Source of the DNA: Bacteroidales bacterium
Lineage (GTDB): Bacteria > Bacteroidota > Bacteroidia > Bacteroidales > VadinHA17
NCBI GenBank assembly: GCA_022615595.1
Contig: JAKEGI010000028.1
Span: 1-11,659 of the forward strand
Reading direction: 5' to 3'
DNA: 11,659 nt
The position numbers and the translations under genes were made by a program. Positions 1-11,659 of the stretch are shown piece after piece (within the stretch, counting starts at the first letter, position 1; every line of letters starts with the position of its first letter). The notes below the pieces were generated by a model. That model was not told where the DNA came from, did no database searches, and saw only the letters and a program-made list of their open reading frames with translations.

Positions 1-524
1 AGTGTATCAGGCAGCATAAATCTCGCCACAGGCTCATCTTTAAGGTTATCGAGCATGTAGTAGACATAGCTTTCAGAATTGATCATCCCGTTTGACCAGT
101 CTTCAAAGTAGAGATTCACAGTCATGCCTCTTTCGACGGCCTTTGAGATTACATATTTAATATCGCGAAGATGTTCGTCAGCGCTCTTTCTCAGCTGCTT
201 CTCAAGATGACGTCTCGATCCTTTGCAAAGGAGATTTACCACCCTGACGCCTGCGTTATCTATCCAGTCGAGTGAAGTCTCTCCGTCTACAAATCCGAGT
301 ACCTCGATTTTGTCAAGCAGGTTATTCTTCCTTGCCCATTCTGCAATTTTGTATGTCGCCTCAAATTCTCCTTCGGAAACTCTTGCCGAAGCTACTTCAA
401 GGCGGTCGACTTTAAGCTCCCTTAGCAGCAGGGTAGCCATATGCAGCTTTTCAACGGGTGAAAATGAAATACCCTGCGTCTGTTCGCCGTCGCGAAGGGT
501 TGTGTCCATTATCTCAAGCTTCAT
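1..524 (-). CDS. LeuA/citramalate-synthase-like acyltransferase, 3' part cut by window start
   Basis: This is the first 174 codons of a DRE-TIM metallolyase of the 2-isopropylmalate / citramalate / homocitrate synthase family. Such enzymes condense acetyl-CoA with a 2-oxo acid. The reading frame opens at the ATG at 524, which overlaps the leuD stop as ATGA. Residues 7-15 read DTTLRDGEQ, the metal- and substrate-binding signature of the family. Residues 141-146 are EDWSNG, and residues 172-174 are PDT, matching the barrel strand that reads PDTTG in LeuA. The HxH metal motif and any C-terminal regulatory domain lie beyond the window. It clearly differs from the leuA at 2533-4029: after GEQ it reads TQGISFSP instead of VPGCQLN. 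From memory, Bacteroides carry such a second LeuA-like gene between leuD and leuB. It could be a citramalate synthase (pyruvate + acetyl-CoA, isoleucine precursor) or a second isopropylmalate synthase. Family is certain, substrate is not. Confidence 0.88.
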   Translation of the reverse strand, partial: MKLEIMDTTLRDGEQTQGISFSPVEKLHMATLLLRELKVDRLEVASARVSEGEFEATYKIAEWARKNNLLDKIEVLGFVDGETSLDWIDNAGVRVVNLLCKGSRRHLEKQLRKSADEHLRDIKYVISKAVERGMTVNLYFEDWSNGMINSESYVYYMLDNLKDEPVARFMLPDT

Positions 525-1123
525 CCCAGACCTCCTCTCTTCTTTTCATAATCTGCAATCCTGCTTCTCATATTTATAAGGTAATCAATGTCATCGAGCC
601 CATGAATCAGACACTCCTGCTTGTAGGGGTTAATCTCGAAGGTGAAAGACTTTCCGGATGAAGGGATCTCCACTTTGCGTTCCTGCACGCTGATTTTAAC
701 GATCGTTTCCGGCGCTGCGGTAACAAGAGCTATGAGGCCCTTTACCTCGTCATCAGGTAAGATCAGAGGAAGCAGGCCGTTGTTAAGTGCATTGTTACGG
801 AAGATATCGGCAAAGAAGCTTGATATCACAACCCTGAATCCGTAATCATAAACGGCCCAGACCGCATGTTCGCGGCTTGATCCGCAGCCGAAGTTTTTCC
901 CTGCAACCAGAATCTTCCCGCTATACTTCCTATTGTTAAGGATAAAGTCCTGAACCGCTCTTCCCTCCTGGTCAAATCTCCAGTCGCGGAACAGGTTATT
1001 GCCAAATCCTTCTCTCGAGGTAGAGCTGAGGAACCTGGCAGGTATGATCTGGTCAGTATCGACATTTTCCAGGGGGAGAGGAACGCAGGTCGATTCAAAT
1101 ATGTTTAGTTTCTCTTTTGCCAT
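521..1123 (-). CDS. leuD: 3-isopropylmalate dehydratase small subunit LeuD
   Basis: The small (swivel-domain) subunit of isopropylmalate isomerase pairs with LeuC to convert 2-isopropylmalate to 3-isopropylmalate in leucine synthesis. In the cytoplasm it supplies the substrate-recognition lid over the LeuC iron-sulfur cluster. The 200-residue length is normal for bacterial LeuD. Residues 20-28 read NVDTDQIIP and residues 79-87 read GCGSSREHA, the two hallmark motifs. The C-terminal GLDDIDYL at 175-182 is also typical. It starts 15 bases after the leuC stop, and its own TGA overlaps the ATG of the next gene by four bases, which suggests translational coupling. If the downstream enzyme makes citramalate, LeuCD could also isomerise citramalate for isoleucine synthesis; that dual role is known in other organisms and is only inferred here. 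Confidence 0.97.
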   Translation of the reverse strand: MAKEKLNIFESTCVPLPLENVDTDQIIPARFLSSTSREGFGNNLFRDWRFDQEGRAVQDFILNNRKYSGKILVAGKNFGCGSSREHAVWAVYDYGFRVVISSFFADIFRNNALNNGLLPLILPDDEVKGLIALVTAAPETIVKISVQERKVEIPSSGKSFTFEINPYKQECLIHGLDDIDYLINMRSRIADYEKKRGGLG

Positions 1124-1138: not shown

Positions 1139-2536
1139 TTAAAACAGTCGCGGATCTGTTATTCTGCCTGTTACCGCCGATGCTGCAGCTGTCAGCGGGC
1201 TGGCAAGCAATGTTCTTGCTCCCGGCCCCTGCCTTCCCTCAAAATTCCGGTTCGAAGTTGAGACAGCATACTTCCCTGCAGGTATTTTGTCTTCATTCAT
1301 CGCAAGACATGATGAGCAGCCCGGTTGTCTCAGTTCAAAACCGGCATCACGGAGTATTTCAAGAAGTCCTTCCTTCTTAACCTGTTCTTCAACAAGTCTT
1401 GACCCGGGGACCAGGAGTGCCGTTACGTTTTCTGCCTTTTTCCTTCCCTTCACAACAGATGCAAAAGCCCTGAAGTCTTCAATTCTTCCGTTTGTACAGC
1501 TGCCGAGGAAGACGTAATCAATAGGATGGCCATCGAGCTTTATTCCCGGGCTGAATCCCATGTATGAGAGGGCCTTAATATAATTATCCCTGTCCTGGCT
1601 GTTCATCCCTTCCGTATCAGGCAGCGGAGCGTCGACCGCTATTGCCATTCCCGGGTTGGTGCCATATGTAATCATCGGTCTGATTGATTCAGCATTTATG
1701 GCGATCTCTTTATCAAATGATGCCCCCGGATCAGTTATGAGATCTTTCCATGATTTGAGATCATCATCAAACGCATTGTTACCTGAGTAGTATTTTGTGT
1801 TCTTAAGGTAGGAAAATGTTGTTTTGTCAGGTGCGATGAGGCCACCCCTGGCTCCCATCTCAATGCTCATGTTGCATATTGTCATTCTTGATTCCATGCT
1901 CAGAGCCCTGATTGCCGAACCGCTGTATTCAACAAAATAGCCTGTTGCTCCGCCAGTTGTAAGAAGAGATATGATATGCATTATTATATCCTTGGATGTA
2001 ACTGCTTTGCCCAGGGCACCGTCAACAGTTATCCTCATTGTTTTAGGCCGGGTCTGCAGGATGCACTGTGTTGCCAGCACCATCTCCACCTCACTCGTTC
2101 CAATACCAAATGCCACTGTTCCGAAAGCGCCATGTGTGGAGGTATGACTGTCGCCACATACGATGGTCATACCCGGTCTTGTGTATCCAAGCTCAGTCCC
2201 TATTACATGAACTATACCGTTATAATTATGATTCAGACCGAATAACTCGATGCCATGCCTGGAACAGTTCTCCCTGAGCTTATCCACCTGCATTCTTGAC
2301 AATTCCTCCCTGATCGGAAGATGCTGATCTCTTGTCGGTGTGTTATGGTCAGCAGTGGCCAGTGTCAGTGATGGCCGGAACACAGTTATCCCCCTCTCAT
2401 CCAAACCCCTGAAGGCCTGAGGGCTTGTTACCTCATGGATATAGTGCCTGTCAATATACAGTACATCAGGGCCATCATCAATAGAATGAACCCTGTGTGC
2501 ATCCCATATCTTGTCGAACAATGTTTTTGAACTCAT
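1139..2536 (-). CDS. leuC: 3-isopropylmalate dehydratase large subunit LeuC
   Basis: The large, aconitase-like subunit of isopropylmalate isomerase carries the [4Fe-4S] cluster that isomerises 2-isopropylmalate to 3-isopropylmalate by dehydration and rehydration. The protein has 465 residues, the usual length for the bacterial two-subunit form. The three cluster cysteines are visible: C347 in GSCTNGR, and C407 and C410 in PGCSSC. The active-site stretch NRNFEGRQG lies at 429-437. [12 protein letters not shown] at 128-139 and the N-terminal DHNTPTRD at 63-70 are further family signatures. The ATG at 2536 overlaps the leuA TGA as ATGA, so the ribosome can pass directly from leuA to leuC. No odd residues or breaks are seen. 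Assignment is secure. Confidence 0.98.
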
Positions 2537-4029
2537 TTTAACTTTGAAATTGCGTCAATCAATGCCTCTACTGATGCCGTAACGATATCAGTATTGGCTG
2601 AAAACCCATAATAGATTCTTCCTTCATACTCCACCTGGACATGCACCTTGCCGAGATCATCACTCCCCTTTGTAATTGCCTGAATAAGGAACTCCTCCAG
2701 CACTATTGTTTTCTTTATCAGTTGCTTGACAGCGGTGAATGATGCATCTATCGGGCCGTTACCCGATGCTGTGGATGTGTGCACTTCACCATTTATTCTC
2801 AGACCGACGGTGGCCACAGGGAAGGTACTCTTGCCGCATGTAACCTGGAGTAGTTCGAGTTTCAGGGGTTTTTCCCCGGTGAAGACCTGTCCGGTCAGGA
2901 TCCTTATGTCATCGTCATCGATATTTTTCTTTTTATCAGCAAGCTGAAGGAACTTATGATATATCTCGTCAAGTTCATCCTTTTTGTACTGAAAGCCCAG
3001 AATTTCAAGGCGGTGATTCAATGCGGCCCTTCCGCTTCGTGCAGTCAGAATGATGGATGATTCCTTGATTCCCACATCCACAGGGTCAATGATTTCATAG
3101 TTTTCCCTGTTCTTGAGCACTCCGTCCTGATGAATTCCCGATGAATGGGCAAAAGCATTCCTGCCCACAATGGCCTTGTTGGGTTGAACAGGCATATTCA
3201 TCAGTGTTGAGACGAGCCTGCTGCTGTTGTAAATGAGCTTGCTGTTTATGTTTGTGGTGAGGTTTAATGACTTGTGGCTTTTAAGTATCATGACGATCTC
3301 TTCAAGAGAGGTATTGCCTGCCCTTTCGCCTATTCCGTTGAGCGTAACCTCAACCTGCCTTGCACCATTAATTATGCCCATCATGGTGTTTGCGGTTGCC
3401 ATTCCAAGGTCATTGTGACAATGGGTTGATATAATTACCTTTTCTATGCCCTTAACATTCTCACGCAGGTACCTGATTTTTTCTCCGTACTGTTCAGGAA
3501 GACAATAACCTGTTGTATCAGGAATATTCACCACCGTTGCACCTGCTTTTATCACGGCTTCGATGACCCTGGCCAGGTATACGTTATCTGATCTTCCTGC
3601 ATCTTCGGCATAGAACTCCACATCATCCACAAATTTCTTTGCATACTTCACGGCGTCAACAGCCCTCCTGAGCACCTCCTCAGGTGTTGCCCTGATCTTA
3701 TGCTCGATATGGTACGGCGATGTTCCTATTCCTGTATGTATTCTCTTACGCTTTGCAAATTTCAGGGCATCAGCTGCTACTTCGATATCCTGTTTTACTG
3801 CCCTTGTCAATGCACAGATAACAGGTTCGGAAACGGCTTTTGATATCTCTACCACCGATGCAAAATCACCGGGGCTGGATATCGGGAAGCCTGCCTCAAT
3901 GACATCAACGCCCAGTGTCTCAAGCGCTTGTGCTACTTCGATCTTCTCAATTGTATTGAGCTGGCAACCAGGGACCTGCTCCCCGTCGCGGAGAGTAGTA
4001 TCGAAAATTATAATCTTTTCTTCCATCAT
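2533..4029 (-). CDS. leuA: 2-isopropylmalate synthase LeuA
   Basis: This enzyme makes the first committed step of leucine synthesis: 2-oxoisovalerate + acetyl-CoA to 2-isopropylmalate. The 498-residue protein has the TIM-barrel catalytic domain at about 1-270, with DTTLRDGEQ at 10-18, the HCHND metal motif at 203-207 and GIGERAGN at 232-239. A linker follows with [13 protein letters not shown] at 291-303. The C-terminal LeuA regulatory domain runs from about 370 to the end and contains GNGPIDA at 423-429, so leucine feedback inhibition is likely. Two adjacent ATG codons lie at the start (4029 and 4026), and either could be used; neither has a good Shine-Dalgarno sequence. It begins 6 bases after the ilvC stop and overlaps leuC by four bases. 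It is distinct from the shorter-motif paralogue at the end of the operon. Confidence 0.97.
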
Positions 4030-4035
4030 TGAAGT

Positions 4036-5088
4036 TTATTTCTTATTACCCGGCCTTAACTTTCTGACTGCAGCCCCGGCGCTCCATAATTCTGAGTTTC
4101 TCAATTCACTTAGTTCAACTTCAAGCAACTCCCTGTAATCTGAGGAGCTCGTTGACTGCAGTACTCTTACACATTCTTCTCCTGACTTCACTCTCCTGTA
4201 GAGTTCTTTGAACACGGGAAGGGTGGCCTCCCTGAACTGGGGTCTCCAGTCGAGAGCACCTCTCTGTGCTGTTACGCTGCAGTTGGCGTACATCCAATCC
4301 ATGCCATTTTCATCGACAAGGCGTATCAGGCTTTGCGTCAGTTCTTCTACGGTTTCGTTAAAGGCTTCAGAGGGGCTGTGACCGTTCTCTCTCAGCACCT
4401 GATACTGTGCATCCATTATCCCGGCCAGGGCTCCCATCAGGACACCCCGTTCACCTGTCAGGTCGCTGTAAACTTCATTTTCGAAAGTGGTAGGGAAGAG
4501 ATAGCCTGAGCCTATCCCGATGCCAAGGGCAAGTACCCTTTCAGTGGCTCTTCCAGTATAATCCTGGAAAACAGAGAAGCTTGAATTGATACCTGCGCCT
4601 GCGAGGAAGTTACGGCGGACGCTTGTCCCCGATCCCTTTGGAGCACATAGAATTACATCGACATATTCAGGAGGTATGACCCCGGTATGCTCCTTATATG
4701 TTATCGAGAAGCCATGCGAGAAATAGAGTGCATCGCCTTTCTTGAGAGAGGCTTTCACCGCAGGCCACAGTGTCCGCTGTGCTGCATCCGATACAAGATA
4801 TTGAATGACAGTACCCTTTTTTACTGCCTCCTCAACGGGGAAGAGTGTTGTCCCGGGAATGAAACCGTCTGCAACGGCACGGTCCCAGTCTTTACTGAAC
4901 TCCGGTGCCTGTCCGACTATTACGTTAAAACCGTTATCCTTAAGGTTCAACGCCTGAGCAGGCCCCTGAACGCCATACCCGATAATTGCTATGGTCTCAT
5001 TCCTTAATACTTCGAGTGCCTTTTCAACAGGAAATTCTTCCCTGGTTACTACCTCTTCAACTACTCCGCCGAAATTGATCTTTGCCAT
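4036..5088 (-). CDS. ilvC: Ketol-acid reductoisomerase IlvC
   Basis: The enzyme converts acetolactate or acetohydroxybutyrate to the dihydroxy acids of valine and isoleucine synthesis, using Mg2+ and a nicotinamide cofactor. The 350 residues contain an N-terminal Rossmann domain with GYGVQG at 37-42, SHGF at 124-127, and a single C-terminal knotted helical domain. The metal ligands are visible as D209 and E213 (SDLTGER) and E245 and E249 (NETVEEL). The conserved CSVTAQRGALDW follows at 270-281. Overall wording matches the Bacteroidota type of IlvC. The odd part is the loop after the second Rossmann strand (residues 60-68, Q-A-P-E-F-S-K-D-W). It has no arginine and carries a glutamate where many NADPH enzymes have R/K and S residues to bind the 2'-phosphate, so cofactor preference may be shifted. 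It lies 30 bases after ilvN and 6 before leuA. Confidence 0.97.
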   Translation of the reverse strand: MAKINFGGVVEEVVTREEFPVEKALEVLRNETIAIIGYGVQGPAQALNLKDNGFNVIVGQAPEFSKDWDRAVADGFIPGTTLFPVEEAVKKGTVIQYLVSDAAQRTLWPAVKASLKKGDALYFSHGFSITYKEHTGVIPPEYVDVILCAPKGSGTSVRRNFLAGAGINSSFSVFQDYTGRATERVLALGIGIGSGYLFPTTFENEVYSDLTGERGVLMGALAGIMDAQYQVLRENGHSPSEAFNETVEELTQSLIRLVDENGMDWMYANCSVTAQRGALDWRPQFREATLPVFKELYRRVKSGEECVRVLQSTSSSDYRELLEVELSELRNSELWSAGAAVRKLRPGNKK

Positions 5089-5118: not shown

Positions 5119-5679
5119 TTAATTATATATGCTCTCTTCCGGGATCTTTGACCTTGTGGCCGTGTCCATCTCTTTCAGGTAGGAGTGAAGCTCCTTAACC
5201 TGTCGTGTGATGGCAATCCTCCCTGATCTGACAAACTGCAAAATCCCGTGCTTCTCCAGAAAACGAAGAAGTTCAATTATCTCATCCTTGTGTCCGGTTT
5301 TCTCTATCACCATATATTCAGGCGTTACCTCGACAAGTCTTCCGTTATGATTCCTGACAACCTGATCGACAATATTTCCTGACATCATCACCTTGGTCGG
5401 TACCTTAAACAGGGCAATCTCCTGATATACTATCTCTTCCGATGTGTGGGCAAATACCTTCAGTACATCGATGACCTTTTCCATCTGCCGCACAACCTTT
5501 TGTATCAACTCTGGAGTTGTCCTTACAACAATTGTTATAAGATGCACCCCTCTTACAGCTGATTCAGAGGCTGTTATGCTATCAATGTTTATCTGCCGCC
5601 TGGTTAGTATTATGGTTATCTGGTTAAGAATACCAATATGGTCTTCAGAAAATACTGATAATGTATATTCCTGGTTCAT
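5119..5679 (-). CDS. ilvN: Acetolactate synthase small (regulatory) subunit IlvN
   Basis: This is the regulatory subunit of acetohydroxyacid synthase; it activates the IlvB catalytic subunit and mediates feedback inhibition, usually by valine. The protein has 186 residues. An N-terminal ACT domain spans about 4-77, with the pattern SEDHIGIL near 11-18 and RRQINIDSIT at 27-36. G16 and N31 align with G14 and N29 of E. coli IlvH, the residues linked to valine binding, so valine inhibition is likely retained. A second, C-terminal ACT-like domain follows at about 82-165, with YQEIALFKVP at 85-94 and QFVRSGRIAITR at 148-159. The gene sits 10 bases after ilvB, the usual pairing, and starts at the first ATG with no clear ribosome-binding sequence. 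It could equally be named ilvH. Confidence 0.96.
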   Translation of the reverse strand: MNQEYTLSVFSEDHIGILNQITIILTRRQINIDSITASESAVRGVHLITIVVRTTPELIQKVVRQMEKVIDVLKVFAHTSEEIVYQEIALFKVPTKVMMSGNIVDQVVRNHNGRLVEVTPEYMVIEKTGHKDEIIELLRFLEKHGILQFVRSGRIAITRQVKELHSYLKEMDTATRSKIPEESIYN

Positions 5680-5689
5680 AGCTGTATAA

Positions 5690-7420
5690 TTAGTGTGTTA
5701 ACTTTATTTCTGATACAGATGCTCCTGGCTGAACCATAGGCATCACATTTGTTTCTTTTTCAACGGTCACCTCCAGCAGGAAGGGTCCGTCAGTTGCCAG
5801 CATTTCCCTTACTGCGGGTTCGAGCTCATCTCTTTCAGATACTTTCTTTGCTGGCATCCGGTATGCAGCCGCAATAGCTGCAAAATCAGGGTTAACCATC
5901 TCTGTAGATGCGTATCTTTTGCTGAAGAACATATCCTGCCATTGTCTCACCATGCCCAGGTAGCTGTTGTTCAGGATGACAATCTTTACGCCAATGTTAT
6001 ACTGCATTATGGTTCCGAGCTCCTGTATTGTCATCTGAAAACCCCCGTCACCCAAAAAGGAGATCACATTCTTTTTTTGTGACCCCAGTCTTGCCCCGAC
6101 TGCTGCCGGAAGTCCGAAGCCCATTGTCCCCAATCCTCCTGATGTTACCAGTGTATTGGGTTCAGTGAACCTGTAATATCTTGCGGTCACCATCTGGTTC
6201 TGCCCGACATCTGTTACTATTACTGCGTCTCCTTTCGTCAGGTCGGAAATAAGTTTTACGACCTCACCCATTTTTATTTCACCCGATTCAGGTTTTATCT
6301 CATTCTTTATAATAGTGTCAAATTCGGTTTTGTCGCATATCCTGAATGCCCGTATCCATTTCTCATAAGAGTTATTATTTACCAGCGGGATGAGACTTTT
6401 AAGAGTCTCTCCGGCATCATTGTTTATAGCCACATCAACCTTTACATTCTTATTAATTTCTGCAGCATCGATATCGATATGAATAATACTGGCATCGGGT
6501 GCATACTTTTTAAGATTTCCGGTGACGCGATCGTCAAACCTCATACCTACAGCAATCAGCAGGTCAGCCTCGTTTGTCAGCACGTTTGGGGCATAATTGC
6601 CATGCATTCCAAGGTACCCGGCATAAAGTCTGTGAGATGAAGGGAAAGCTGATAGACCGAGCAGAGTAAGGGCAACGGGGATACCCGTCTTTTCTGCAAA
6701 CATCATCAGTTCCTTCTCTGCATGAGAGATAAGGACACCATGGCCGGCAATGATCATCGGACGGGAAGCATGATTAATCAGTATTGCTGCCGATTCGATT
6801 TCCTTCATATGAAGAGGTATATGCGGATTATAGCTTCTTATATAATCGCATTTGCTGTAGCTGAAATTCAGTCTCTCAATCTGGGCATCTTTTGTAATAT
6901 CAACCAGTACGGGTCCGGGACGTCCTGTGGTGGCAATATAGAAGGCCTTTGACAGAGCCTCCGGTATTTCTGATGCACTCTTGACCTGGCAGTTCCACTT
7001 TGTCACAGGCATTGACACTCCGATGATGTCTGTCTCCTGGAAGGCATCGGTTCCTATCAGGGTTGAGACCACCTGGGCTGTTATAAACACCACCGGGACA
7101 GAATCGAGGTATGCATTGGCGATACCCGTCACCAGGTTGGTGGCGCCGGGACCGGAGGTGGCAAGACATACTCCCGGCTTGCCGGTCACCATGGCATAGG
7201 CCTGGGCTGCATGGGCGGCACCCTGTTCATGTCTTGTAAGTATGTGGGTTACCTTATCCTCCACATTCATGAGGTTGTCATAGATAGGCATTATTGCCCC
7301 TCCGGGATAGCCGAAGACCGTCTCCACTCCCTCGGCAATAAGTATATTGATGACTGCCTCGGCACCTGAAATCTCAGTATGCCCGTTTCCGTTGTGATTC
7401 TTGTTGTTATTTTCCTTCAT
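5690..7420 (-). CDS. ilvB: Acetolactate synthase large (catalytic) subunit IlvB
   Basis: The thiamine-diphosphate catalytic subunit of acetohydroxyacid synthase joins two pyruvates to acetolactate, or pyruvate and 2-oxobutyrate to acetohydroxybutyrate. The 576-residue protein shows the three expected domains. The PYR domain (about 15-185) has the catalytic glutamate E65 in RHEQGAAHAAQAYA. The central FAD-binding-like domain spans about 205-350 and includes RFDDRVTGN at 294-302. The PP domain holds the ThDP motif from GDGG at 457-460 to NN at 484-485. The first 13 or so residues are rich in Asn, Lys and His and precede the conserved core, so they form a short low-complexity leader. The gene starts 11 bases after the ilvD stop and is followed 10 bases later by ilvN, its regulatory partner. 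An assimilatory enzyme is more likely than a catabolic acetolactate synthase because of the linked small subunit. Confidence 0.97.
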   Translation of the reverse strand: MKENNNKNHNGNGHTEISGAEAVINILIAEGVETVFGYPGGAIMPIYDNLMNVEDKVTHILTRHEQGAAHAAQAYAMVTGKPGVCLATSGPGATNLVTGIANAYLDSVPVVFITAQVVSTLIGTDAFQETDIIGVSMPVTKWNCQVKSASEIPEALSKAFYIATTGRPGPVLVDITKDAQIERLNFSYSKCDYIRSYNPHIPLHMKEIESAAILINHASRPMIIAGHGVLISHAEKELMMFAEKTGIPVALTLLGLSAFPSSHRLYAGYLGMHGNYAPNVLTNEADLLIAVGMRFDDRVTGNLKKYAPDASIIHIDIDAAEINKNVKVDVAINNDAGETLKSLIPLVNNNSYEKWIRAFRICDKTEFDTIIKNEIKPESGEIKMGEVVKLISDLTKGDAVIVTDVGQNQMVTARYYRFTEPNTLVTSGGLGTMGFGLPAAVGARLGSQKKNVISFLGDGGFQMTIQELGTIMQYNIGVKIVILNNSYLGMVRQWQDMFFSKRYASTEMVNPDFAAIAAAYRMPAKKVSERDELEPAVREMLATDGPFLLEVTVEKETNVMPMVQPGASVSEIKLTH

Positions 7421-7431
7421 TCCCTGAAACC

Positions 7432-9258
7432 TTAGATAATTCTTATCGCACCCTGATCAGCTGAACTGACATTGGCAGCGTATGCCTTCAGAGCGCCTGA
7501 GATCACTCTTGACCTCTTTAGCGGTTTGTAGGCCATTTCACCCCTTAAAGTCTGGGCTGATCTCCTTTTTTCAATTTCTTCCTTATTTACCAGGAGGTTT
7601 ATTGACCTGTCAGCGATACTGATCTCAATAATATCTCCGTTCTGTACAAGGGCCAGTAATCCTCCTGCGGCTGCTTCGGGTGACAGATGACCGACAGATA
7701 GTCCTGATGTGCCTCCAGAAAAGCGGCCATCGGTTAAAAGTGCACATCTCTTGTCTAGCCCCTTTGACTTCAGGTATGAAGTGGGGTAGAGCATCTCCTG
7801 CATGCCTGGCCCTCCTCTTGGTCCTTCGTATCTTATAATGACAGCCTGGCCCTCCTTCACACCTCCGTTCAATATGCCCTCCACGGCATCTTCCTGTGAT
7901 TCGAAAACGACGGCAGATCCTGAGAAGGTGAAGAGAGCAGGGTCTATGCCGGCTGTTTTGACAATGCACCCGTTCACGGCAACATTACCGTACAGTACTG
8001 CCAGTCCTCCTTCCCTGTTGTAGGGGTGATCCATGCTTCTTATGCAGCCGCTGACCCTGTCAGTATCATGGGCGGGATAATATTTTTCCTGCGACCCCAT
8101 CTCAAGATTTCTCACACCTCCCGGGGCGCTTCTGAATAGTTCATGGGCCTCAGGGAGTGCTGTCCCGCTGAGTATATCCCATTGCGAGATCGCTTCAGCG
8201 AGAGAGGGGTGGTCAATCCGGAATACAGAGTCATCAATCAGCCTGCCACGTGACAATTCACCCATGATGGCCATGATCCCTCCGGCACGGTTAACATCCT
8301 GGATGTGAAAGTGTGAGCTTGGGGCTACCTTACAGATATTTGGAATCTTCCGTGACAGCTCATCAATATCCTTCATTGTGAAATCCACCTTTGCTTCCCG
8401 GGCGACAGCCAGGAGATGAAGAACGGTATTGGTAGATCCGCCCATTGCAATGTCAAGGGACATAGCATTCATGAAGGCACTCCTGGTAGCAATTGAACGG
8501 GGAAGAACAGTATCATCACCCTCGTAGTAATATTTTTTTGAAAGTTCGACTATCAGCCGGGCAGCTTCTTCCATCAGCATGAGACGATTCCGATGTGTGG
8601 CAACCACTGTTCCGTTACCCGGCAGGGCTATTCCAAGCGCCTCGGCAAGGCAGTTCATTGAGTTGGCTGTAAACATCCCGGAGCAGGAGCCGCATGTCGG
8701 GCAGGCTGCCATTTCTATCTCTTTAAGTTTCTCATCAGAGACCGAATCGTCAGCAGCAGCGACCATGGCATCTATAAGATCCAGTTCCCTCGTGGCGGTT
8801 CTGCCTGCCTCCATAGGGCCACCTGAAATAAAAACAGTCGGAATGTTAAGTCTCATGGCGGCCATCATCATCCCGGGAGTGATCTTGTCACAGTTGCTGA
8901 TGCAGATCATCGCATCTGCGCGATGGGCGTTGCAGACATACTCCACGCTGTCGGCTATCAGCTCTCTTGAAGGAAGGGAGTAGAGCATCCCTTCGTGGCC
9001 CATAGCAATACCGTCATCTATCGCTATTGTATTGAACTCAGCAGCAAAGAATCCCTGCCTGTTGATCTCTCTCTTAATCAACTGGCCAGCATCATGCAGG
9101 TGTACATGGCCGGGGACGAACTGAGAAAAGGAATTTACGATCGCAATCAGAGGTTTTCCAAACTGATCTTCCCTCATTCCATTGGCACGCCAGAGACTTC
9201 TGGCTCCGGCCATGTTCCTTCCTGTTGTCGTTGTCGAACTTCTTAAAGGTATTTTCAT
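7432..9258 (-). CDS. ilvD: Dihydroxy-acid dehydratase IlvD
   Basis: The iron-sulfur enzyme dehydrates the dihydroxy acids made by IlvC to 2-oxoisovalerate and 2-oxo-3-methylvalerate. The 608-residue length matches the long E. coli-like form. Visible signatures are DDGIAMGH at 81-88, the SNCDKITPG stretch with C123 and K125, and CPTCGSCSG from C186 to C192. The late [12 protein letters not shown] motif is also present. The position that holds a third cysteine in many [2Fe-2S] plant and actinobacterial enzymes reads PGHVHL here, as in E. coli IlvD. An oxygen-sensitive [4Fe-4S] cluster is therefore more likely; this is inference. The gene is first in the operon after the leader region, and its ATG at 9258 lies 16 bases beyond the U-tract of the attenuator terminator. 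No Shine-Dalgarno sequence is seen; the A/U-rich bases before the start are normal for Bacteroidota. Confidence 0.98.
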
Positions 9259-9274
9259 GTAAAAAAAATCATTT

Positions 9275-9306
9275 AAAAAAAAGCTTCCCGGTTTTCCGGG
9301 AAGCTT
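9275..9306 (-). terminator. Intrinsic terminator in the ilvD leader (attenuator)
   Basis: On the minus strand, a perfect 11-bp stem (AAGCTTCCCGG, loop AAAA, CCGGGAAGCTT; 9306 to 9281) runs straight into a tract of eight U residues ending at 9275. On the plus strand the hairpin is not followed by a U-tract, so it acts in the direction of ilvD. It lies between the promoter and the ilvD start, after the leader peptide, so it is placed to control read-through into the operon and not to end kbl transcription only. A second run of eight U residues (9261-9268) follows just before the ilvD start. Confidence 0.9.
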
Positions 9307-9344
9307 CTGTATATTTCACCTTTTATTATACAATTACCCACCGG
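9296..9344 (-). promoter_or_regulatory. Putative antiterminator alternative to the attenuator hairpin
   Basis: The segment CCGGUGGG (9344 to 9337), beginning 4 bases after the leader-peptide stop codon, can pair with CUUCCCGG (9303 to 9296). The latter is most of the 5' arm of the terminator. Seven of eight positions pair, counting two G-U pairs, with one U-C mismatch. The same segment, as GUGGGUAAU (9341 to 9333), can instead pair with AUUACC-CU-CAC (9381 to 9371) inside the leader coding region: nine pairs with a two-base bulge. These mutually exclusive pairings resemble the 1:2, 2:3 and 3:4 structures of classic attenuators. The antiterminator is weaker than the terminator on paper, and its folding has not been computed. 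Confidence 0.6.
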
Positions 9345-9348
9345 ATCA

Positions 9349-9405
9349 TTAGCCTAAGCCAATAATAAGTGTGAGGGTAATAAAATATAATATAATACTT
9401 CTCAT
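9349..9405 (-). CDS. Branched-chain amino acid leader peptide (attenuation)
   Basis: An 18-codon reading frame with its own ATG and TAA lies between the promoter and the attenuator hairpin. The product reads MRSIILYFITLTLIIGLG. Nine of 18 residues are isoleucine (positions 4, 5, 9, 14, 15) or leucine (6, 11, 13, 17), and there is no valine. This is the expected makeup of a sensor peptide whose translation stalls when charged tRNA-Ile or tRNA-Leu is scarce. Residues 9-12 are encoded by the RNA segment that can pair with the region after the stop codon. The stop is followed at once by an in-frame TGA. A ribosome resting on the stop would cover the putative antiterminator segment four bases downstream. 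The composition is also compatible with chance in A/T-rich DNA or with a tiny hydrophobic peptide, but position, length and surrounding structures favour a leader. Confidence 0.82.
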   Translation of the reverse strand: MRSIILYFITLTLIIGLG

Positions 9406-9411
9406 AGTTAC

Positions 9412-9427
9412 GTTGCAGTCATGCAAC
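9412..9427 (-). repeat. Perfect hairpin in the ilv 5' untranslated region
   Basis: GTTGCA and TGCAAC form a perfect 6-bp inverted repeat around a 4-base loop (TGAC). It lies between the promoter -7 box and the leader-peptide ATG, six bases before that ATG, near the expected 5' end of the mRNA. It may be an RNA hairpin that stabilises the transcript or tunes leader translation, or a DNA operator. The sequence alone does not decide. Confidence 0.55.
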
Positions 9428-9435
9428 AATGGGGA

Positions 9436-9465
9436 CAAAAATAGATATAATTTTAATACAGCAAA
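9436..9465 (-). promoter_or_regulatory. Bacteroidota-type promoter of the ilv-leu operon
   Basis: On the minus strand, TTTG (9465 to 9462) is followed after 18 bases by TATTTTTG (9443 to 9436). This is an exact match to the Bacteroidota -7 consensus TAnnTTTG with a -33 TTTG at near-normal spacing. Transcription would begin about 6-8 bases further on, near 9429, giving a 5' leader of roughly 24 bases before the leader-peptide ATG. The promoter begins 38 bases after the kbl stop codon. Confidence 0.75.
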
Positions 9466-9502
9466 CATTTTCGCCTTTTTTTGAAAAACGTGAAATTATG
9501 TT

Positions 9503-10693
9503 CTACTTCAGGATCTGCAGTTCTTTGCCAATTTTGATGAATGCACTGACAGCCTTGTCGAGATGTTCAATCTCGTGTGCTGCCGAGAGTTGTACCCTGA
9601 TGCGTGCCTGGTCTTTCGGGACAACAGGGTAGTAAAATCCGATTACGTAGATACCTTCCCTAAGCAACCGTGAAGCCAGCTCCTGGGAGAGTTTGGCATC
9701 ATAAAGCATTACTGCGCATATTGCTGACTGTGTTGGTTTTATGTCAAATCCGGCCTTTAGCATCCTCTCCATGAAATACTTCGTGTTGAAATGCAGCTTG
9801 TCCTGCAATTCGTTGGTCTCGGTCATCATCTCAACCATCCTGATGCCTGCAGCGGCAACAAGAGGCGGGATGGCATTGGAGAAGAGGTATGGCCTTGAGC
9901 GCTGGCGGAGCATCTCAATTATCTCCTTCTTGCCGGTGGTGAACCCTCCGATGGCTCCGCCGAATGCTTTGCCCAGGGTGCCGGTTATTATCTCGATCTT
10001 TCCCCTGAGGTTATATAGTTCTGTGACTCCCCGGCCTGTTTCACCGACAACACCCGCGGAGTGGCACTCATCTACCATGACCATGGCATTGTATCTGTTT
10101 GCCAGCTCATATATTTTGTCAAGCGGAGTCACGTTACCATCCATAGAGAAGACACCGTCGGTGACTATAAGTCTGAAGCGCTGCTCCTGTGCAAGTTGCA
10201 GTTGTGTCTCAAGGTCCTCCATGTCTGCATTCTCGTAGCGGTAGCGCTGTGCCTTGCAGAGACGCACGCCGTCAATTATTGAAGCATGGTTGAGGGAGTC
10301 TGATATAATGGCATCTTCACTTGTGAGCAGTGGTTCGAACACGCCGCCGTTGGCATCAAAACAGGCTGCATAGAGAATAGTGTCTTCGGTTCCGAAAAAA
10401 TCAGCCAGTTTATTTTCCAGCTCCTTATGCAGGTCTCCGGTACCACATATGAAACGTACCGATGACATACCGTAGCCATGAGTCTCAAGCGCTTTCATGG
10501 CCGCCTCAACCAGCTTCTCATTCGCTGACAGTCCGAGGTAGTTATTGGCACAGAAATTCAGCACCCGTTGCCCGGTGTCAAGTGTTATCTCCGCACCCTG
10601 CGGTGATACAATGACACGTTCATGCTTGTATAGCCCGGCTTCTTTTATCTCACTGATCTGAGACCTGAGATAATTCTGATATTGATTGTACAT
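9503..10693 (-). CDS. kbl: Glycine C-acetyltransferase (2-amino-3-ketobutyrate CoA ligase)
   Basis: This PLP enzyme of the alpha-oxoamine synthase family splits 2-amino-3-oxobutyrate with CoA into glycine and acetyl-CoA, the second step of threonine breakdown after threonine dehydrogenase. The 396 residues match the family length. Visible landmarks are NFCANNYLGL at 46-55, NHASIIDG at 135-142 with H136, VDECHSAG at 207-214 with D208 and H211, and the PLP lysine K242 in GTLGKAFGG. ARIRVQLSAAHE near 363-374 is the C-terminal signature. The wording matches the Kbl of Bacteroides as I recall it, so the Kbl assignment is preferred over BioF or serine palmitoyltransferase. The partner tdh is not in the window. 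A divergent paralogue lies 119 bases upstream. No strong terminator follows the stop codon, so transcripts may continue into the ilv leader. Confidence 0.93.
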   Translation of the reverse strand: MYNQYQNYLRSQISEIKEAGLYKHERVIVSPQGAEITLDTGQRVLNFCANNYLGLSANEKLVEAAMKALETHGYGMSSVRFICGTGDLHKELENKLADFFGTEDTILYAACFDANGGVFEPLLTSEDAIISDSLNHASIIDGVRLCKAQRYRYENADMEDLETQLQLAQEQRFRLIVTDGVFSMDGNVTPLDKIYELANRYNAMVMVDECHSAGVVGETGRGVTELYNLRGKIEIITGTLGKAFGGAIGGFTTGKKEIIEMLRQRSRPYLFSNAIPPLVAAAGIRMVEMMTETNELQDKLHFNTKYFMERMLKAGFDIKPTQSAICAVMLYDAKLSQELASRLLREGIYVIGFYYPVVPKDQARIRVQLSAAHEIEHLDKAVSAFIKIGKELQILK

Positions 10694-10812: not shown

Positions 10813-11659
10813 TCACATTCCGTACTTTTCAATGATCTGATCTTTTGTGAGACCAAGAATACCATATTTCTTTCCCACTTTGATAAATGCTTCGAGGGCT
10901 TTGTCGAGATGGTGGATCTCGTGACCTGCAGAGATCTGGGTTCGTATCCTTGCCTGCCCGTTCGGAACCACAGGGAAGAAGAATCCGATAGCATATATGC
11001 CCTCTTTAAAGAGATCCCTCGAAAAGTCCTGTGACAGTTTTGCATTGAAAAGCATTACCGGCACTATCGGGGTATTACCATCCTTAAGCAGGAAGCCTGC
11101 TTCTGTAAGACCTTTACGCCAGTATGCCGCGTTTTTTTCGAGCTTGTCGCGACGTTCGGTGCTTGCAGTAAGGATATCGAATACCTTGAGTACACCCGAG
11201 ACAATAACAGGAGCTATTGTATTTGAGAATAGATAAGGACGGGCCTTCTGCCTGCACATCTCCACTATCTCCTTTCTTCCTGACACACACCCTCCGGAGG
11301 CTCCGCCGAGGGCCTTCCCGAAGGTTGTCGTGATGATGTCAATCTTGCCGAAGACATTGCAGAATTCATGGGTGCCCCTTCCTGTTGTACCGATGAATCC
11401 CGATGCATGAGAGTCATCGACAAGCAGCATGGCATCATACTTTTCGCAAAGTCTGACCATTTCGTCAAGCCTGGCTGTATCCCCGTCCATGGAGAAGACG
11501 CCGTCGGTAATGACCAGTTTAAGGCGTTTATCAGCGTGGAGCAGGAGTTTCTCTTCAAGGTGCTCCATGGATGAGTGTTTGAAGGTGTCATGCTGTGCGC
11601 TGCAGAGCCTCATACCGTCAATTATCGAAGCATGCACCAGCCTGTCAGAGATCATAATA
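10813..11659 (-). CDS. Second Kbl-family (alpha-oxoamine synthase) enzyme, 5' end beyond window
   Basis: The C-terminal 282 or so residues of a PLP-dependent alpha-oxoamine synthase are present. The frame stays open to the window edge, and the ATG at 11655 is internal, because the following SDRLVHASIIDG aligns with residues 131-142 of the neighbouring Kbl. Visible landmarks are VDDSHASGF, with the PLP-contacting Asp and His, the lysine of TTTFGKALGG, and ARIRTQISAGHE near the C-terminus. It looks roughly half identical to the adjacent kbl product by eye. It differs in several places: VHAS replaces NHAS, the RYRY stretch is replaced, TTTFGKA replaces GTLGKA, and about 12 extra C-terminal residues end in EKYGM. 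Its DDSHA and GGASGG wording resembles E. coli Kbl. It is probably a second glycine C-acetyltransferase, but another amino-acid or acyl-CoA substrate is possible. The TGA lies 119 bases before the next gene. Confidence 0.85.
   Translation of the reverse strand, partial: IMISDRLVHASIIDGMRLCSAQHDTFKHSSMEHLEEKLLLHADKRLKLVITDGVFSMDGDTARLDEMVRLCEKYDAMLLVDDSHASGFIGTTGRGTHEFCNVFGKIDIITTTFGKALGGASGGCVSGRKEIVEMCRQKARPYLFSNTIAPVIVSGVLKVFDILTASTERRDKLEKNAAYWRKGLTEAGFLLKDGNTPIVPVMLFNAKLSQDFSRDLFKEGIYAIGFFFPVVPNGQARIRTQISAGHEIHHLDKALEAFIKVGKKYGILGLTKDQIIEKYGM

Follow-up and report, generated by a model that had tools for sequence, protein, structure and literature searches.

Results

A short frame rich in Ile and Leu codons and a terminator precede ilvD

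What decides whether the ilv-leu genes of this bacterium are transcribed? The window, by which we mean the whole 11,659-nucleotide stretch of DNA that was analysed (one contig of a 1.6 Mb assembly that is 69% complete), holds the gene order ilvDBNC-leuACD, which would be read as one transcript, and a first-pass annotation had proposed that the operon is governed by a leader-peptide attenuator lying before ilvD. The anatomy behind that proposal can be read directly: a promoter motif, the leader frame MRSIILYFITLTLIIGLG, a UAA stop, a gap of 42 bases (9348–9307), an 11-bp hairpin, eight T and then ilvD (Table 1). The leader begins with ATG at 9405–9403, ends with TAA at 9351–9349 on the minus strand and reads ATG AGA AGT ATT ATA TTA TAT TTT ATT ACC CTC ACA CTT ATT ATT GGC TTA GGC, with Ile or Leu at 9 of the 18 codons. 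The hairpin consists of AAGCTTCCCGG (9306–9296), the loop AAAA (9295–9292) and CCGGGAAGCTT (9291–9281), and its stem can be extended to 13 pairs. When folded, the sequence 9405–9259, which begins with the leader and ends just before ilvD, had a z score of –6.06 against 200 shuffled sequences, none of which folded as well.

The promoter motif follows TTTG / TAnnTTTG, which we take to be the Bacteroidota promoter consensus, with 18 bases between TTTG and TATTTTTG. Transcription would start near 9430, giving a transcribed leader of about 150 bases that is mostly coding frame and alternative helices. The leader frame stays open in the 5' direction up to an ATG at 9468, beside the promoter motif; in the alignment of relatives that we call A1 (below), the column of 9405 is ATG, GTG or TTG in 56 of 63 rows. 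By eye we saw no Shine-Dalgarno-like sequence 5' of the leader in the window, as the annotation had said; to our knowledge, a leader start of this kind is usual in Bacteroidota.

Table 1. Features of the window. Positions count from the first letter of the whole stretch.
Feature	Position	Strand	Basis or detail
TTTG, distal promoter element (Bacteroidota-type), putative	9462..9465	-	sequence reading
TATTTTTG = TAnnTTTG, proximal promoter element, putative	9436..9443	-	sequence reading
Leader ORF MRSIILYFITLTLIIGLG + UAA stop	9349..9405	-	18 codons, 5 Ile + 4 Leu
Segment 1, within leader ORF	9375..9392	-	AUUACCC 9381-9375 and UAUUAUAU 9392-9385 pair with segment 2
Segment 2, directly after stop	9324..9345	-	CCGG 9344-9341, GGGUAAU 9339-9333, GUAUAAUA 9331-9324
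Segment 3	9296..9313	-	terminator 5' arm 9308-9296, and UAUACAG 9313-9307 lengthening the antiterminator
Segment 4, terminator 3' arm	9279..9291	-	folding
Eight T, U tract of terminator	9275..9282	-	sequence reading; first two pair in stem as well
ilvD, dihydroxy-acid dehydratase, operon gene 1	7432..9258	-	NF009103 and TIGR00110 above cut-off
ilvB, acetolactate synthase large subunit	5690..7420	-	TIGR00118 above cut-off
ilvN, acetolactate synthase small subunit	5119..5679	-	TIGR00119 above cut-off
ilvC, ketol-acid reductoisomerase	4036..5088	-	TIGR00465 above cut-off
leuA, 2-isopropylmalate synthase	2533..4029	-	TIGR00973 above cut-off
leuC, isopropylmalate dehydratase large subunit	1139..2536	-	TIGR00170 above cut-off
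leuD, isopropylmalate dehydratase small subunit	521..1123	-	TIGR00171 above cut-off
Citramalate/isopropylmalate-synthase-like gene, 5' part, truncated by contig end	3..524	-	top match NF042433 (CimA)
Glycine C-acetyltransferase gene, upstream neighbour of leader	9503-10693	-	

By their profile matches, the products of the genes downstream are enzymes that make Ile/Leu-type amino acids, matching the codons of the leader. The ilvC product exceeds the TIGR00465 cut-off yet falls below that of NF004017 (213 versus 336 bits), and may therefore be a divergent ketol-acid reductoisomerase. The CimA match of the truncated last gene spans profile positions 7–179 of 514 and is below the full-length cut-off. 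At the other end of the window, a second gene of the glycine C-acetyltransferase family adjoins the first (10813–11659, minus strand) and is truncated by the contig end.

The unit is kept before ilvD throughout the family

The annotation had named, as evidence that would refute it, close relatives in which the hairpin is retained but the reading frame or its Ile/Leu codons are lost. IlvD matched in 86 of 98 family genomes; leaving aside G096, whose ilvD is cut at a contig start, and G058, where it is in fragments, we examined the window and 84 further ilvD upstream regions (G008 twice). A script that looks for an intrinsic terminator downstream of a short frame rich in Ile, Leu and Val (I/L/V) codons found both in 83 of these 85 regions, and by eye we judged the unit present in the other two (L105 and L133), the first of which is also a covariance-model match. 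Stricter settings gave 78 of 84 and 77 of 85.

At the setting that gave 77 of 85, the script made no call in 425 Markov-simulated regions and 3 calls in 365 regions before other ORFs of at least 200 aa. Of those 3, one looks real (L077) and another used the terminator of a hisG leader (L246). In L077, an I/L/V leader, MSLLHHILFVLIIVIIIIPP, and a terminator stand before an ilvB-like ORF (~5011) and not before ilvD.

The promoter motif is found in the matching place in relatives: 56 of 82 family rows carry TTTG-N17-23-TAnnTTTG 5' of the leader, compared with 0.24% of shuffles, and 67 of 82 carry TAnnTTTG, compared with 6.2% of shuffles, its end a median of 21 bases before the leader start. The leader starts chosen by the script in 83 family rows are ATG (62), GTG (14) and TTG (7). 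I/L/V make up 51.5% of residues in the leader frame versus 30.9% and 13.3% in the other frames, a comparison that is partly circular and carries little weight because the rows were selected for the leader frame.

These counts bear on a simpler account, that the hairpin terminates the upstream glycine C-acetyltransferase gene and the short frame arose by chance. It does lie on the same strand, 196 bases past the stop of that gene, but a promoter motif and an I/L/V leader, both conserved in place, intervene, the leader and terminator occur together so rarely in the simulated and other-gene regions, and the helices described next fit their own partners. We therefore consider a terminator of the upstream gene highly unlikely.

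Exclusive helices are predicted to respond to the position of the ribosome

The annotation had also listed three pairings, 1:2, 2:3 and 3:4, that exclude one another. Folding recovered them: the antiterminator (2:3) and the terminator (3:4) are mutually exclusive, and the protector pairing (1:2) sits in the ORF. With a ribosome at the stop, the leader folds into AUUACCC:GGGUAAU and UAUUAUAU:GUAUAAUA (coordinates in Table 1), and the terminator forms as well; moving the ribosome to the Ile/Leu codons yields CCGG (9344–9341):CCGG (9299–9296), GGGU:GCUU and UUGUAUA:UAUACAG. The 2:3 helix is thus present, but in the window a U.C mismatch and wobbles weaken its middle relative to the family consensus, and there is an extra 7-pair upper helix that the annotation did not list.

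We then placed a ribosome with an assumed 27-base footprint on each codon in turn and ended the transcript at segment 3, before segment 4 exists. For the window, a ribosome on Leu6–Ile15 gave an expected count of 9.4 for 2:3 pairs; the count was 0.3 when the ribosome stood at the stop and 4.4 when there was none. In the 63 family rows of type A (one of two versions of the antiterminator, see below), the means were about 8.3, 0.6 and 5.0, respectively. Between the best stalled state and the stop state, more than 3 pairs were lost in 62 of these 63 rows, and likewise in 131 of the full set of 136 (row L042 was left out of these folds). This loss of 2:3 at the stop arises largely because the footprint reaches segment 2, that is, from spacing. 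The best stalled state exceeded the ribosome-free state by more than 1.5 pairs in just 32 of the 63 type-A rows. For the window without a ribosome and before segment 4, the best fold is already 2:3 and the ensemble is mixed, so that the folds make no clear prediction that an untranslated leader terminates. The complete leader, at equilibrium, adopts the terminator whether the ribosome is stalled or at the stop, and the decision would therefore need to be kinetic, made during RNA synthesis.

In the mechanism that we propose, the leader peptide would be translated while RNA polymerase advances from the start near 9430. Were charged tRNA-Ile or tRNA-Leu scarce, the ribosome would stall in the Ile/Leu stretch and cover segment 1; segment 2, left free, would join the terminator's 5' arm in the 2:3 helix, and the operon would be read. 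With an ample supply, the ribosome would reach the UAA and cover segment 2, the terminator (3:4) would form, and transcription in the cell would stop before ilvD. The constrained folds and the comparative evidence both agree with this stall-or-terminate model, which the annotation had put forward.

Pairing partners co-vary and the antiterminator exists in two versions

Among the 83 family rows, segment 2 and the terminator arm come in two sequence versions. Type A (63 rows) has CCGGGAA in segment 2 and TTTCCGG in the terminator arm; type B (18 rows) has GGTGAGAA..GG and CC.TTCTCACC; 2 rows were left unsorted. The antiterminator thus persists while its sequence is replaced.

To compare partners across both versions, we scored each segment against its own partner and against partners swapped between rows. 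Across the 83 family rows, 1:2 scored 27.7 with its own partner and 23.8 when swapped, and 2:3 scored 20.2 and 16.3. In 54 rows from named records, the corresponding values were 22.8 and 19.4 (1:2) and 17.9 and 14.3 (2:3). In every case, none of 5000 permutations was as good. Together with the retention of the leader, this is the outcome of the alignment of ilvD upstream regions that the annotation had suggested.

We additionally counted double changes by column within the alignments A1 (type A, 63 rows) and A2 (type B), comparing them with 500 shuffles that ignore the relatedness of the rows; both alignments hold only rows accepted by the caller, and the pairing percentages are conditional on that acceptance. 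In type A, the core of 1:2 is 87.1% paired, with 24 double-changed cells versus 11.5 in the shuffles (0 of 500 as many), although the pairs that show a double change are not unusually many (6 versus 4.5; 112 of 500), and a control slid by +2 gave 34 double-changed cells but was 54% paired. The core of 2:3 in type A is 94.8% paired and nearly invariant, with no double changes; with the upper helix, which is itself 57.6% paired, it shows 24 double-changed cells versus 14.9. In type B, 2:3 is 88.1% paired with 27 double-changed cells versus 11.6 (0 of 500), and 1:2 is 73.4% paired with 22 double-changed cells versus up to 30 in slid controls, which makes the last comparison weak evidence. The terminator (3:4) is 98.1% paired in A1 and 99.8% in A2.

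Codon choice in the leader bears on what the unit would sense. It might respond to leader translation in general (slow elongation, antibiotics) or to Rho or translational coupling, the Ile/Leu bias being a product of AT-richness. Ile codons are indeed AT-rich, as is the region, and in the fold model 2:3 arises almost wherever in the stretch the ribosome sits, be the codon Ile/Leu or other. AT-richness fits poorly, however, with the distribution of the residues: in type-A family rows, I/L/V account for over 90% of the residues at positions –5 to –7, counted in codons from the stop, yet for 49% and 41% at –10 and –13. It fits poorly also with the use of GC-containing Leu, Ile and Val codons in the leaders (CTC, CTT, ATC, GTG and GTC), and with the runs of His codons in hisG leaders of relatives that share a similar layout (below). 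Such general sensing therefore seems very improbable. We conclude that, with high likelihood on the evidence of sequence comparison and modelling, the ilvDBNC-leuACD operon has a ribosome-mediated transcription attenuator of the classical type, which would respond to Ile and Leu and would very probably let the bacterium limit the synthesis of branched-chain amino acids to times when these are scarce.

The unit extends through the order

We built a covariance model (R1) from the 63 type-A rows. It matched at E ≤ 0.01 in 74 of 98 family genomes, and the strong matches fall ahead of that genome's own ilvD match, except in G096, whose element appears to lie at the end of a different contig. Across the order, it matched in 43 of 198 genomes, mostly weakly. 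Because R1 reaches other families poorly, prevalence in the order was measured from ilvD upstream regions.

In a sample of 109 genomes spread across the order, 44 had IlvD at E ≤ 1e-100 (the window's own counted), and 43 upstream regions were examined. The script called a leader and terminator in 30 of the 43, one of which (L334) is doubtful by eye. Among the 13 misses, inspection by eye revealed a clear unit in L295, L305 and L330, a plausible one in L332, an I/L/V-rich frame alone in L311 and L326, and a hairpin without such a frame in L325; no unit was seen by eye in L321, L322, L324, L329, L331 and L333. For named records ranked by IlvD similarity, the unit was called in 51 of 80, including Mariniphaga, Parabacteroides, Marinifilum, Labilibaculum and Ancylomarina. 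Many of the 29 records without a call are labelled Spirochaetes or other phyla, and records of Alistipes, Rikenellaceae, Muribaculaceae and Prevotellaceae are among them (L037, L062, L078, L079, L081). A candidate leader-peptide switch before ilv-leu is thus widespread in a whole bacterial order.

Beyond the order, a loose caller fired in 9 of 40 regions sampled from the phylum (a count that leaves out loci L166–L194). By eye, six of these are convincing (L197, L203, L211, L224, L225, L229), L215 is doubtful, and L210 and L233 are ambiguous. In other classes of the phylum (L216–L221), short I/L/V-rich frames stand before ilvD and no terminator was called in range; these possibly use another terminator type.

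Similar leaders precede other amino-acid genes

R1 also matched weakly at 21 places away from ilvD, of which 20 were examined (G038:C202 was left out). By eye, 10 are hisG leaders, 3 are Phe/Tyr leaders, 2 are Asn leaders, and 5 are plain terminators or ambiguous (L255, L258, L262, L263, L264). The names HisG, PheA and AsnA for the products of the genes that follow are ones we assume by eye and from recall.

His-rich leaders (e.g., MYTTTSHHHSHTCSQAR) stand directly before hisG-like genes in L245–L250, L252–L254 and L260, with terminators such as AACCCGTCTGA..TCAGGCGGGTT. In L245 and L246, the His leader shares a contig with the ilv leader and follows it by about 12 kb; in L245, ORFs of lengths and order like those of the window are followed by 2 more (513 and 355 aa) and then by the hisG-like gene with its own leader. 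The hisG leader is a second candidate attenuator with a layout similar to that of the ilv unit. Leaders rich in Phe and Tyr (e.g., MNIIYNWFAAYFYFYFFKRR), with terminators, precede prephenate-dehydratase-like genes in L251, L259 and L261. Asn-rich leaders (e.g., MINCYFNNNLFNQVMNNYHNPGRILLKN), again with terminators, precede asnA-like genes (aspartate-ammonia ligase) in L265 (= L256), L267, L285 (= L257) and L293. The script found Asn leaders at 4 of the 29 family asnA loci examined, and they are therefore not general in the family. Our literature search found no report of an Asn leader attenuator.

Finally, 7 of 208 upstream regions carry tandem leader–terminator units before ilvD. Five are from Marinifilum, Labilibaculum, Ancylomarina and a Marinifilaceae MAG (L053, L054, L058, L066, L074), and the others are L032 and L337. 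In those five, the first leader has Ile, Val and Leu codons, and the second has nearly all Ile and Val. Tandem leader attenuators are described for Salmonella mgtCBR, which in the abstract of PMC3641672 its authors call a singular example answering different signals.

Discussion

The ilvGMEDA, ilvBN and leu attenuators of Escherichia coli and Salmonella combine the exclusive helices 1:2, 2:3 and 3:4 with a leader peptide rich in codons for the end product. The window shares both traits and differs in its 18-codon leader, in an operon that begins with ilvD and in a promoter and start region of Bacteroidota type. A comparative survey by Lopatovskaya and colleagues (2010) reportedly covers several phyla. 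That survey is cited in the portion of PMC4833913 available to us. A 2010 genome survey (PMC2965389, in the part available) states that leader-peptide systems had until then been shown only in Proteobacteria and Actinobacteria, and adds Firmicutes; the string 'bacteroid' is absent from its main text as available.

The closest described case is the ilvD attenuator of Staphylococcus aureus, from a different phylum, which has the same first gene and an Ile/Leu leader. The available passages of PMC5794164 describe an Ile/Leu peptide of 26 aa whose stop lies 52 nt before a terminator, a model of stalling versus termination, and leader and terminator mutations among strains selected for growth without Val. 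As described there, the S. aureus antiterminator spares the terminator stem and pairs with the U tail, whereas segment 2 here pairs with the terminator 5' arm, and a ribosome-binding site and additional control by CodY are reported, whereas we saw no ribosome-binding site here. The ilvB leaders of Actinobacteria likewise have a short I/L/V-rich frame and a terminator before an ilv operon, but their frame overlaps the terminator hairpin, unlike that of the window (PMC1262725, passages available); the ilvBNC leader of Corynebacterium glutamicum reportedly belongs with them (PMC11857589). Counting against our reading, codon changes in the Streptomyces coelicolor ilvB leader, which is of similar type, were without response, according to the same part of PMC1262725.

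A different kind of sensor is also conceivable, in which a tRNA-sensing T-box or other metabolite riboswitch runs the terminator and the leader frame is incidental; the Bacillus subtilis ilv-leu operon has a tRNA-Leu T-box (PMC5794164, in the passages available). A cmscan search against 4227 Rfam families returned five matches up to E = 5, none of them at its gathering score and none a T-box or riboswitch, and little of the roughly 150-base leader is left over once the coding frame and the alternative helices are accounted for. We rejected the T-box identity on the cmscan result and regard riboswitch control as extremely unlikely. The search also gave a weak match to Phe_leader (RF01859) at 9403–9274, a membership that we rejected since its 30 bits are below the gathering score of 55 and the peptide specificity differs.

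For ribosome-mediated attenuation, there are precedents within the phylum. In Flavobacterium psychrophilum, strong clues were reported for leader-peptide attenuation before amino-acid operons, in a passage that names no operon, pairing or conservation (PMC9723704), and in Bacteroides thetaiotaomicron, short ORFs reminiscent of leader peptides were noted (PMC7366714, in the part available). The Flavobacterium clues place the window's unit within a known kind. The annotation had presented it as a compact version in a distant phylum; the kind had already been hinted at for the phylum (PMC9723704, same passage). Among the matches listed in our literature search, which left subscription journals mostly outside, there was no description of a Bacteroidota ilv attenuator like the window's.

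The ilv unit is itself a further case of a known kind of attenuation, and its breadth, its tandems and its His, Phe/Tyr and Asn counterparts are more interesting. On balance, we favour the broader view, drawn from these comparisons, that ribosome-mediated attenuation may be an old and general form of amino-acid control in Bacteroidales, covering Ile/Leu/Val (ilvD), His (hisG), Phe/Tyr (pheA-like) and, in a few lineages, Asn (asnA). If that is true, the tandem leaders of Marinifilaceae would form a two-input gate before ilvD. With its two antiterminator versions, the set from across the order offers natural data for the evolution of attenuators that have no visible Shine-Dalgarno start, and the unit provides a clear, testable prediction for how branched-chain amino-acid synthesis may be controlled in a major group of bacteria from the gut and the environment.
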